From assembly GCA_030765625.1 (NCBI GenBank), contig JAVCCF010000033.1:1-47753 (forward strand): a stretch of DNA of 47,753 nt, given 5' to 3'. Positions 43,837 through 47,753 of the stretch are shown here, in pieces. The first letter of the stretch is position 1; each line of letters starts with the position of its first letter. The notes under the pieces were generated by a model, which saw only the letters and a list, made by a program, of their open reading frames with translations, ran no database searches and was not told the DNA's origin. This DNA is from Candidatus Tenebribacter burtonii (lineage in GTDB: Bacteria > Cloacimonadota > Cloacimonadia > Cloacimonadales > TCS61). The translations under genes were made by a program, and so were the position numbers.

Positions 43837-43962
43837 TTCATCATTCTTAACTCAATGCTTCGCTGTTAAGGCAAGTCTGATGGTTATTGTTGATCGTTCA
43901 CTCCTGAACGTATTCTTTCATCATTCTTAACTCAACGCTTCGCTGTTAAGTCAAGTCTGATG
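43837..43962. repeat. 46-bp direct repeat, two copies at 80-bp spacing
   Basis: 43837-43882 and 43917-43962 are identical except at two positions. Each contains CTTAAC and GTTAAG, which can pair, and GCTTCGCTGTTAAG. Between them CGTTCA/TGAACG forms another hairpin. With only two copies and inner symmetry this is not a CRISPR. No gene is seen from 43829 to 44017. Confidence 0.75.
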
Positions 43963-44334: not shown

Positions 44335-45654
44335 ATGGGTTTCAAAACATTTCCAGGTGGAATTCACCCCCGCGATTATAAGGCTTTTTCTAAAGATAAG
44401 AACATAGAAAAAATGCCAGTACCTAAGAAAATTGTAATTTCTCTTTCGCAGCATATTGGAGCTCCGGCAAAACCAGTTGTTAAAGTTGGAGATGAAGTTC
44501 TTGCCGGTCAAAAAATAGCAGAGGCAGGTGGTTTTGTCTCTATTCCAATGCATTCATCAATTTCCGGCAAGGTTACTAAACTTGATAAATTCAGACATCC
44601 TACAGGTACCTTAGTTCAAGGTATAGAGATCACAAGTGATGGCGAGGATAAATGGATAGAGCTTATTGATGATAGTAATTATATGGAACTAACCGCAAAA
44701 GATATGAAGGATCGGATTGCTGCTGCTGGTGTCTGCGGAATGGGTGGTGCCGGTTTTCCTACTCATGTCAAGCTATCACCTCCGGAAGGAAAAACAATCG
44801 ATACGATCATCTTAAACGGTGTGGAATGCGAACCTTATCTCACAGCCGATTACCGAATAATGCTGGAACAAGCCAATGATATTTTGGCTGGGCTTAAAAT
44901 TCTAATGAAGATCGTTGATGCTAAAAACGGTGTTATTGGCATTGAAGCAAATAAACCTGATGCTATCAAATTTTTCAAAAATCTTCTTAAAAATGAGAAA
45001 AACATAAAGGTTGTTAGTTTGCATCTCAAGTATCCGCAAGGTGCAGAGAAACAACTTATTTATGCTACTACAAAACGTAAGGTTCCCAATAAAGGCGGAT
45101 TACCCATGGATGTGAATGTGGTTGTTCAAAATGTGGGAACTGCTATTGCTGTTTACGAAGCTGTGCGTTATAAAAAACCTCTGGTAGATAGAGTTATTAC
45201 GGTTAGTGGTAGAATTGTGAAAAATCCAAAAAATATCAAAGCTCGTATTGGCACTTTTTATTCTGATCTTTTGGAATATTGTAACGGCACTACAGAAGAA
45301 ATTGGTAAAATAATTTCAGGTGGACCAATGATGGGATTTGCAATTCCATCTTTAGAAACTCCTATGACAAAAGGAAGTTCCGGTCTGCTTCTGTTTGATA
45401 AAAAAGAAGCTTATAAAGAAAAAGAGGACGTATGTCTTCGCTGCGGACATTGCGTGGATATTTGCCCAATGAACCTGGTACCCAGCCTTATTGCTCATCA
45501 CGTGCGTAATGATGATTGGGATTCTGCAGAAAAATTTGGTGTAATGGACTGCATAAAATGCGGTAGTTGCGCTTATGTTTGCCCTTCTAACATCAAGCTT
45601 ATCCAATGGATCGATATTGGTAAGATCAAGGTAAGTGAGAATAGGACGAAATAG
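44335..45654 (+). CDS. rnfC: Rnf electron transport complex subunit C
   Basis: A 439-aa RnfC. It starts with the family's GGIHPxxYK motif (FPGGIHPRDYKAFS), then a barrel-sandwich-like domain, an NAD/FMN-binding core similar to NuoF (AAGVCGMGGAGFPTHVKLSP, LNGVECEPYLTADYRIMLE), an SLBB-like domain, and two 4Fe-4S clusters: Cys367, 370, 373, 377 (CLRCGHCVDICP) and Cys406, 409, 412, 416 (CIKCGSCAYVCP). In the complex it passes electrons between reduced ferredoxin and NAD at the cytosolic face while ions are pumped. The start has GGGAG upstream. It is the first gene of rnfCD; the spacer to rnfD is filled by an inserted element starting in its own stop codon. Confidence 0.95.
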   Translation: MGFKTFPGGIHPRDYKAFSKDKNIEKMPVPKKIVISLSQHIGAPAKPVVKVGDEVLAGQKIAEAGGFVSIPMHSSISGKVTKLDKFRHPTGTLVQGIEITSDGEDKWIELIDDSNYMELTAKDMKDRIAAAGVCGMGGAGFPTHVKLSPPEGKTIDTIILNGVECEPYLTADYRIMLEQANDILAGLKILMKIVDAKNGVIGIEANKPDAIKFFKNLLKNEKNIKVVSLHLKYPQGAEKQLIYATTKRKVPNKGGLPMDVNVVVQNVGTAIAVYEAVRYKKPLVDRVITVSGRIVKNPKNIKARIGTFYSDLLEYCNGTTEEIGKIISGGPMMGFAIPSLETPMTKGSSGLLLFDKKEAYKEKEDVCLRCGHCVDICPMNLVPSLIAHHVRNDDWDSAEKFGVMDCIKCGSCAYVCPSNIKLIQWIDIGKIKVSENRTK

Positions 45655-45702
45655 GGATTAGGGATTAGGGATTAGGAATTAGGGATTAGGAATTCGGGAA
45701 TT
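45654..45702 (+). repeat. heptamer array, left flank of the four-helix-bundle insertion
   Basis: Seven consecutive 7-base units of the type GGGATTA (GGGATTA three times, GGAATTA, GGGATTA, GGAATTC, GGGAATT). The first G is the last base of the rnfC TAG stop. A degenerate array of the same heptamer lies in the opposite orientation at 46091-46118. Confidence 0.85.
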
Positions 45703-45705
45703 ATT

Positions 45706-46075
45706 ATGAAAAATTATAAAGAATTGATTGTCTGGCAAAAAGGGATAGAGCTTGCGATTGAAATTTATCGAATCATTGATTTATTTCCTTCAAAGGAAAA
45801 ATATACCCTTACTAATCAGATGCAGCGAACTGTCATCTCTATCTCTTCTAATATTGCTGAAGGATGGGGACGCGGATTAACAAAAGAATATATTTATTTT
45901 TCTACGTGTTGCAAAAGGTTCTTTATTGGAATTAGAAACACAAGTTATCATTGCTTTCAAACTTAAATATATTGATCAAAATAATTTTGATAAAGTATCA
46001 GATTTAATTAAAAGCATTGCGATGATGCTAAATAAATTAATCTCAAAATTAAAAATAAAATTGAACAAGGGATAA
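45706..46075 (+). pseudogene. four-helix-bundle protein (23S rRNA intervening-sequence type), frameshifted
   Basis: The first 65 codons read MKNYKELIVWQKGIELAIEI, then NQMQRTVISISSNIAEGWGR, the hallmark of the four-helix-bundle family first seen in 23S rRNA intervening sequences. A T5 run (45897-45901) has one T too many: skipping one base continues YFLRVAKGSLLELETQVIIA, then the fourth helix to TAA at 46073-46075, giving the usual length of about 122 residues. As it stands the product ends after 86 codons (45966). It is either a true single-base lesion or a homopolymer error. Such proteins are often encoded by small elements placed in rRNA or between genes; here it separates rnfC from rnfD and is framed by opposed heptamer arrays. 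Confidence 0.85.
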
Positions 46076-46090
46076 TGGAACCGGAAACAC

Positions 46091-46118
46091 TAACCCCGAA
46101 TTCCGAGCCCCAAATCCC
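46091..46118 (-). repeat. inverted heptamer array, right flank of the insertion
   Basis: Read on the minus strand: GGGATTT, GGGGCTC, GGAATTC, GGGGTTA. It is the inverse counterpart of the array at 45654-45702, with GGAATTCGGG shared exactly. In RNA the two arrays could pair and close a stem around the four-helix-bundle gene. Confidence 0.7.
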
Positions 46119-46135
46119 GAAATAATGGAGGATAT

Positions 46136-47209
46136 ATGAACGATGTTTATGCTGTTTCTGCAGCACCGCATATAAAGCAGGGAACATCAGTAAGCTCTAC
46201 TATGTGGCAAGTCGTTTTAGCTCTTACGCCAGCACTGCTGGCAGGAATATTCTTTTTTGGAATTCAATCTTTGCTTCTTACCCTTTATGCAATTGCAGCA
46301 GCCATAACTACAGAAGCATTGATCCAGAAATTCAGGAAAGTTCCCATCACCGTTAGTGATGGTAGCGCAGTTGTAACCGGCATTCTTATTGCCTTTAATA
46401 TTAATTCTTCCTCACCTTGGTGGTTACCGGTTACTGGAGCAATCTTTGCAATTGCTCTCGGAAAACAGATATTTGGTGGATTAGGTTTTAATATTTTTAA
46501 TCCTGCCTTGTTAGGACGTGCTTTTATGATGGCTTCCTGGCCAACCTTAATGACAGCTGGCTGGAAATTCACAGCTCCAATGAACAATCTGTTCCAAAGC
46601 TCAATAAACGGACTTAGAAATTTACCCTCAAATGTTCCAGATGTTGTAACTTCGGCTACTCCGCTGGGAGTTATAAAAGCTTTACGAGATACCACTCAAA
46701 TTAGTAGTGATATGGCAAATACTGTAATGGATAATCTCACCAATATGAACACACTTCAAGATTTTTTCTGGGGAAATATTGGTGGTGTTATTGGCGAAGT
46801 TTCTGCTGCTGCACTACTTATCGGCGCTGCCTATCTTGCCTGGAAACATATCATAGAATGGCGAATTCCTGTAAGCTATATTGGAACTGTATTTGTGCTT
46901 ATTTATATGTTTGGTGGAATCAATGGCATGTTCTCAGCTTCCATAATGCTTCCTATATTCCATATTCTTGCCGGAGGTCTTATCCTCGGTGCATTCTTCA
47001 TGGCAACTGATATGGTAACCTCTCCAGTTACAAAAAAAGGAAGACTCATCTTTGGTATGGGTTGTGGAATTTTTACTGTTGTTATACGTCTGATCGGAGG
47101 ATATCCGGAGGGAGTATCATATTCAATTCTTCTGATGAATATTACAGTTCCTCTAATTGATAGATATACCATTCCTAAACCTTTTGGGCAAAGAAAAACG
47201 GCTAATTAA
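46136..47209 (+). CDS. rnfD: Rnf electron transport complex subunit D
   Basis: A 357-aa NqrB/RnfD family membrane protein with about nine hydrophobic helices (first two: VVLALTPALLAGIFFFGI, LLLTLYAIAAAITTEALI). Family motifs are DGSAVVTGILIAFN, FGGLGFNIFNPALLGRAF and TSATPLG, in which Thr175 is the expected site of covalently bound FMN. The end has the SPVTKKGRLIFGMGCG segment. It forms part of the ion-translocating core. AGGAGG-like sequence (GGAGGA) lies 6 bases before the ATG. It follows rnfC across the inserted element; rnfG, usually next, is replaced at this position by a GxxExxY gene. Confidence 0.95.
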   Translation: MNDVYAVSAAPHIKQGTSVSSTMWQVVLALTPALLAGIFFFGIQSLLLTLYAIAAAITTEALIQKFRKVPITVSDGSAVVTGILIAFNINSSSPWWLPVTGAIFAIALGKQIFGGLGFNIFNPALLGRAFMMASWPTLMTAGWKFTAPMNNLFQSSINGLRNLPSNVPDVVTSATPLGVIKALRDTTQISSDMANTVMDNLTNMNTLQDFFWGNIGGVIGEVSAAALLIGAAYLAWKHIIEWRIPVSYIGTVFVLIYMFGGINGMFSASIMLPIFHILAGGLILGAFFMATDMVTSPVTKKGRLIFGMGCGIFTVVIRLIGGYPEGVSYSILLMNITVPLIDRYTIPKPFGQRKTAN

Positions 47210-47357: not shown

Positions 47358-47753
47358 ATGAGAGATCCTAAGAACTATAAATATTCAGATTTAACTGAAA
47401 AAATTATAAAAGAAGTTTATTATGTTTTCAATAAATTAGGGAGTGGTTTTTTAGAGAAAGTATATGAGAAAGCTTTAATTCATAGATTAAATTTAATTGG
47501 ATTAAATGCTGAATCTCAAAAACCAATTCATGTTAGAATGGATGGAATTCTTGTAGGTGGATATTATGCTGATATAGTTGTAGATGATAAAATAATTATC
47601 GAACTCAAAGCTAAAAATTTGTTGGTAAAGATAGACGAAGTTCAATTAGTAAACTATTTAAAAGCTACAAAAATTGAAGTAGGGTTACTAATAAATTTTG
47701 GAGAGAAAATCGAGATTCGTAGAAAAGTAAATACTATGGATTACAATAAGGAG
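47358..47753 (+). CDS. GxxExxY family protein (PD-(D/E)XK-like), cut by window end
   Basis: 132 codons, open at the window edge. The family signature is GSGFLEKVYEKAL (about residues 28-40), and the nuclease-like core is ADIVVDDKIIIELKA (Asp, then Glu-x-Lys), which matches the PDDEXK_3 group. The middle QKPIHVRMDGILVGGYYADI is also typical, as is VQLVNYLKAT. The full family length is about 125-135 residues, so only a few are missing. Function is unproven; a nucleic-acid role is inferred from the fold. It stands where rnfG is expected in an rnf operon, so it is probably inserted. There is only a weak ribosome site before the ATG. Confidence 0.85.
   Translation, partial: MRDPKNYKYSDLTEKIIKEVYYVFNKLGSGFLEKVYEKALIHRLNLIGLNAESQKPIHVRMDGILVGGYYADIVVDDKIIIELKAKNLLVKIDEVQLVNYLKATKIEVGLLINFGEKIEIRRKVNTMDYNKE

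Follow-up and report, generated by a model that had tools for sequence, protein, structure and literature searches.

Intervening sequences (IVSs) of ribosomal RNA lie inside the 23S (or 16S) gene, usually in helix 9, 25 or 45, and are removed by RNase III without religation; some of them contain an open reading frame (ORF) of the S23/IVP family. Such 23S rRNA IVSs with an S23/IVP ORF are described in Coxiella, Leptospira and other bacteria (PMC4990558). In Coxiella, three GACAGAT heptamers precede the S23 ORF, the ends of the IVS are complementary, RNase III cleaves the stem where the first repeat begins, and the ORF has decayed in some strains (PMC4990558).

Tandem heptamers have also been described in their own right. 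As far as the available parts of the reports go, no other type of intergenic tandem repeat is as abundant across prokaryotes, and nothing clearly points to what these heptamers do (PMC6344855). Published examples include the G-rich GGGNATC heptamers of Xanthomonas and Nostoc, some of which form inverted pairs (PMC4692102), and TAACTGA heptamers in Beggiatoaceae (PMC4679880). The same parts of these three reports present the repeats without an S23 or four-helix-bundle (4HB) gene. In the share of the literature that we covered, we found no description of S23/4HB genes with opposed heptamer arrays outside rRNA.

The element between rnfC and rnfD

The window analysed here is a 47.8-kb stretch (47,753 nt) of the Candidatus Tenebribacter burtonii genome. 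On its forward strand, rnfC (44335–45654; Pfam RnfC_N and Complex1_51K) ends with a TAG stop codon at 45652–45654, the G of which is the first base of the first of seven GGGATTA-type heptamers (45654–45702; GGGATTA three times, then GGAATTA, GGGATTA, GGAATTC and GGGAATT). Tandem Repeats Finder (TRF) gives this array a score of 75–83 (75 for 45652–45699, period 7), and the remaining period-7 arrays of the window are short AT runs only, scoring 33–34. A 4HB gene follows on the same strand (45706–46075), and the Pfam match to PF05635 (23S rRNA IVP/S23 family) bears out its assignment to the rRNA-IVS protein family in the original prediction. The downstream arm consists of four degenerate heptamers in the opposite orientation (about 46090 to 46121/46122 by a 32-nt ungapped local alignment; TRF 46094–46120; reverse complement TTCGGGATTTGGGGCTCGGAATTCGGGGTTAG), and stops just short of the rnfD ribosome-binding site, a GGAGG at 46127–46131. 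The downstream host gene rnfD (46136–47209, ATG at 46136; PF03116, E 6.8e-116) is again on the forward strand. The predicted arrangement of seven heptamers from the rnfC stop codon, the gene, and four opposed degenerate heptamers could thus be confirmed in the sequence.

By local alignment, the two arms are inverted repeats of each other over 32 nt without a gap (45658–45689 with 46090–46121), and the score of this alignment is matched by 0.12% of 4,833 segment pairs of the same spacing in the window. As an RNA duplex the arms are less extreme, being equalled by 3.3% of random pairs, and they are paired in the MFE fold of the locus (z −1.99). As the inverted repeat of this single locus is uncommon but not extreme, our case rests on the class of 4HB loci. 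A genome-wide search found GGGATTAGGGATTA nowhere else in the 2.8-Mb genome, and the GGGATTA arrays that were expected at other 4HB genes of this genome were not found there, because the repeat word is locus-specific.

The 4HB reading frame is broken in this copy, which the original prediction overlooked. The frame that opens with the ATG at 45706 ends at 45966, and a different frame then runs to the TAA at 46073–46075; accordingly, PF05635 positions 1–63 (6.7e-20) and 54–106 (1.4e-9) fall in two different frames. The break is due to one extra T in the run at 45897–45901, which has five T here and four in the orthologues L078, L081 and L096. The extra T may be either a real mutation or an assembly error, and the copy at this locus is probably inactivated. 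Intact orthologues occupy the same rnfC–rnfD site in related genomes.

The locus shares with rRNA IVSs the protein family (here as a frameshifted S23/IVP ORF), complementary, stem-forming ends around the ORF (here 32-nt arms paired in the MFE fold) and an ORF in sense to the host transcript; tandem heptamers ahead of the ORF are shared with the Coxiella IVS, and in both systems some copies have a decayed ORF and a retained stem. It is nevertheless no rRNA IVS, as it lies between rnfC and rnfD and not in rRNA. The host of an IVS is rRNA, whereas that of the 4HB element is the mRNA of a protein operon, and a cut in an mRNA cannot be equated with the fragmentation of a folded rRNA. With the published heptamer repeats, in the available parts of those reports, the locus has in common degenerate tandem 7-mers in intergenic DNA (STRR or GGGNATC type) and, with the GGGNATC repeats, a sense array after a stop codon, an antisense array before the next ORF and, for some, inverted pairs (PMC4692102). 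At 4HB loci, unlike in those parts of the reports, each pair encloses a 4HB gene and the word varies by locus.

Opposed arms across 4HB genes

Approximately 100–130 nt on each side of the 4HB genes of the phylum and of a many-phyla sample were compared for complementarity, and opposed complementary flanks were counted at a score of at least 12. Such flanks were found at 153/223 4HB genes (69%), compared to 3.4% of mismatched flank pairs and 8/230 control ORFs (3.5%), while flanks in direct orientation were found at 38 of the same 223 genes. The many-phyla sample by itself gave 55/79, and an independent collection of viral contigs gave 33/44 against 4.3% of mismatched pairs. These counts are approximate, since the loci are partly non-independent and start codons were guessed, but the contrast is still large. 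About 30% of 4HB genes are without clear arms.

In MFE folds of 83 loci with clear arms, the arms paired with each other by a mean of 30 bp, which dropped to 12 bp when the 3′ flank was swapped for one from another locus. The original suggestion that the arrays pair as a stem around the gene agrees with this pairing across many 4HB loci. At orthologous sites, own arms paired better than cross-paired arms in 16 cases against 4, counted over pairs that are not independent. At the rnf site, cross-species pairing was as good as own pairing, and covariation in the form of an own-versus-cross difference was rejected there. No rRNA match was found in 60 related 4HB loci, so the link to rRNA rests on the literature.

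The arms are mostly periodic at seven nucleotides. In the many-phyla set, identity at lag 7 was 0.60 compared to 0.30 in shuffles, and lag 7 was the best lag in 40/52 arms; words of 8 and 9 nt also occur in 4HB arms. The word itself changes from locus to locus, with 113 different dominant heptamers in 136 loci. The upstream arm is poor in C (G exceeds C in 136/153 arms, and C exceeds G in 10). This composition leaves the arm little scope for pairing with itself and so favours a partner on the other side of the gene. Only 6/153 arms contain at least four G-triplets, and a G-quadruplex was rejected as the general basis of the arms. Heptamer arms were also found at 4HB genes of Nostoc, Anabaena and Calothrix, and are of a type reported as repetitive in cyanobacteria.

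The neighbours of 4HB genes are predominantly co-directional, in 62/63 and 61/65 cases in the phylum and in 65/75 and 70/74 in the many-phyla set, with 19/29 adjacent gene pairs of the window as a small baseline. The upstream arm mostly begins no more than about 15 nt from the stop codon of the preceding gene, and the arms finish shortly before the next start. Antisense insertions exist, as at L228 (between nrd genes) and L231. On cyanobacterial plasmids, two 4HB genes (L232 and L237) lie between cas genes, at cas6|cas4 (type I-D) and cas10|cmr3 (type III-B). Several 4HB genes or fragments are clustered within 10–12 kb, with arrays interspersed, at L286 (G036:C5) and L287 (G030:C9).

The AF2 model of a relative's 4HB protein (pLDDT 95.6) has the four-helix fold of the S23/IVP family, in line with the PF05635 profile match. 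Its best matches among solved structures are 2gsc and 2rld; S23/4HB structures, these two included, have been solved since 2006, and to our knowledge none has a known function. The next matches are Avd (4dwl) and the ribonucleoprotein of a diversity-generating retroelement (DGR), at TM-scores of 0.71–0.86 and E-values of about 0.1. The four-helix-bundle fold is thus common to Avd (4dwl, 8ube) and the 4HB protein, although their sequence identity is 12–13%. The modelled fold suggests that the 4HB protein may bind RNA.

Opposed arrays also cap genes of a second family. GxxExxY genes (PF13366) carry opposed flanking arrays in 16/28 cases in the phylum, compared to 5.4% of mismatched pairs. They share this capping with 4HB genes but encode an unrelated PD-(D/E)XK protein and have other words, often of 9 nt (CGCAGATTA, CACAGAG). 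One GxxExxY/PDDEXK_3 gene lies directly after rnfD (47358–47753, running off the window); its flanks begin at about 47210, with the words TCTGCGTTGA and ATCAACGCTGA nearby.

Heptamer arrays are not confined to 4HB genes, and a 4HB-only reading of them was rejected by a survey of one near-complete genome (G040, 2.16 Mb), in which a 4HB gene lay beside only 4/58 period-7/8 arrays. This shows that such arrays also arise without a 4HB gene and that the element accounts for part of them at most. The same genome holds long opposed arrays (L354–L462) with inverted-repeat scores of 50–64 and words like GGTTGAGAG, for example at 592381–593762, 946409–947440 and 1605324–1606518; the spans of 0.9–1.1 kb inside these opposed arrays contained neither a long ORF nor a 4HB remnant. 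A different repeat occurs in the window at 43860–43960, where two copies of AACTCAA(T/C)GCTTCGCTGTTAAG(G/T)CAAGTCTGATG lie about 60 nt apart, and a related string, CTTAACAGCGAAGCGTTGAGTTAAG, is found on the opposite strand near hisS (L005, about 2255–2285).

Movement, site occupancy and decay

The number of 4HB copies per genome ranges from 0 to 30. Between 4HB pairs at unrelated sites, background word sharing is 1.2%, compared to 45%, 40% and 67% for protein identities of 65–70%, 70–80% and >80%, respectively, in small numbers of pairs. Close relatives at unrelated sites thus share both gene and word, indicating that the two move as a unit. In alignments of four such pairs (L241/L245, L253/L249, L278/L275 and L062/L063) the similarity stops at the arms and the flanking genes are unrelated. 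The joint movement of gene and arms is in line with the original suggestion that the insert could be a mobile unit. The moved pairs that were inspected had neither a target-site duplication nor a fixed terminus. MITEs and other transposon derivatives have fixed terminal inverted repeats and a target-site duplication, whereas the words here differ per locus and the inspected pairs show no duplication, so the element does not fit that class. One of the aligned copies, in G119, lies upstream of prs; two related genomes, G121 and G115, gave no 4HB match at their prs genes, an absence that we infer from match coordinates.

The rnf site itself is variably occupied. The 4HB gene is present in this genome (G000) and in G002, G003 and G005, and the contig of G007 starts inside the gene. 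Decayed remnants with retained arm sequence were found in G006, G008, G009 and G001, and G004 has no 4HB gene at this site. In several other genera of the family, rnfC and rnfD are separated by a short gap only, and these are the uninserted loci that the original prediction proposed to look for. The pattern that it named as speaking against a mobile unit, in which all relatives have the same gene and arrays are absent elsewhere, is not what we observe, since several members of the genus lack the gene or carry a decayed one and arrays flank 4HB genes elsewhere. Gene-less array fragments were found at the same rnfC stop codon in G016, G018 and G023, so the site may have been occupied earlier or more than once. 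The decayed remnant in the rnfC–rnfD gap of G006 (L082) holds another type of repeat block (CAATCTTAAATCCCTGATCTCCAATCATAAATC), which may be a nested insertion. Intact 4HB genes are under purifying selection, with dN/dS of 0.05–0.13 at the rnf site and 0.06–0.17 elsewhere.

A probable mobile element in operon mRNA and its alternatives

We consider it probable that this locus is one copy of a widespread mobile element, in which a 4HB (S23/IVP) gene inside opposed arrays of short words forms a stem-loop in operon mRNA. The element would be placed in sense after the stop codon of an operon gene and ahead of the ribosome-binding site of the following one, and would be transcribed within the host mRNA; there its arms, made of words of mostly 7 nt, are predicted to form an extended RNA stem that has the 4HB gene in its loop. 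The arms are complementary, the word is locus-specific, the gene travels with its arms, placement is in sense, purifying selection acts on the gene, and old copies decay. By analogy with rRNA IVSs, RNase III may cut the stem and so excise the element from the mRNA, which would then be left in pieces instead of being spliced. Given the likeness of its fold to that of the RNA-binding protein Avd, the 4HB protein might bind its own stem-loop RNA and thereby promote the persistence or spread of the element.

The 4HB gene could instead be a regular member of the operon that is inherited mainly by vertical descent. Its opposed arrays would then form a stem that shields the ends of the mRNA or uncouples the expression of upstream and downstream genes, and the gene would not be excised and would move only rarely. 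The strong purifying selection on the protein, the retention of the rnf site across the genus, and the sense orientation with its fit between stop codon and Shine–Dalgarno sequence are consistent with this explanation. We regard it as unlikely, given the copy numbers of 0–30 per genome, the combination of word and gene common to unrelated sites, and the orthologous sites with a short gap or decayed remnants. It is far less probable that the arrays are independent repeats, either slippage products or G-quadruplexes such as the GGGNATC repeats of Xanthomonas and Nostoc, with no functional tie to the 4HB gene. The five GGG runs of the array in the window could make a quadruplex, most arrays of the surveyed genome G040 are not near 4HB genes, and the available parts of the literature describe heptamer arrays as common and report no S23 link (PMC4692102, PMC6344855). 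For the class, however, independent repeats are strongly disfavoured by the excess of opposed pairs around 4HB genes over controls (69% against 3.5%), by the scarcity of G-triplets in the arms and by words that move with the gene.

About as improbable, or marginally more so, is a non-autonomous retroelement, in which an Avd-like 4HB protein together with a reverse transcriptase (RT) in trans would copy the stem-loop RNA into transcribed sense sites. The ranking of Avd and the DGR ribonucleoprotein directly after the S23 proteins in the fold comparison, as well as the strong sense bias of the insertions, would fit such a route. DGRs combine an RT with template and variable repeats, whereas no RVT_1 match was found in this genome (98% complete), so that the locus was not classed as a DGR, nor in G116 and G121, which carry 30 and 22 4HB copies; past or plasmid-borne RTs could still have acted. 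Copy number and RT count are uncorrelated (rho 0.14, p 0.12), and an RT acting in trans was rejected for want of co-occurrence with 4HB copies.

Returning to a mobile element in operon mRNA, the ligand of the 4HB protein is likely to be its own stem, and the arrays beside 4HB genes are likely the arms of that stem. This reading also suggests that rRNA IVSs represent one particular form of elements that invade transcribed gaps in general, including those of metabolic and CRISPR-cas operons. More tentatively, and with somewhat less than even confidence, we propose a pan-bacterial class of mobile elements in operon mRNA, each with the gene of an RNA-binding 4HB protein in the loop of a stem made of heptamer arrays, of which the rRNA IVS is one target-site variant. 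If so, the class would explain a share of the heptamer arrays of prokaryotes, and array-only copies would be remnants or non-coding derivatives. The 4HB element may account for some of the puzzling 7-letter repeats of many genomes, and joining S23 proteins with heptamer arrays gives both a testable context.
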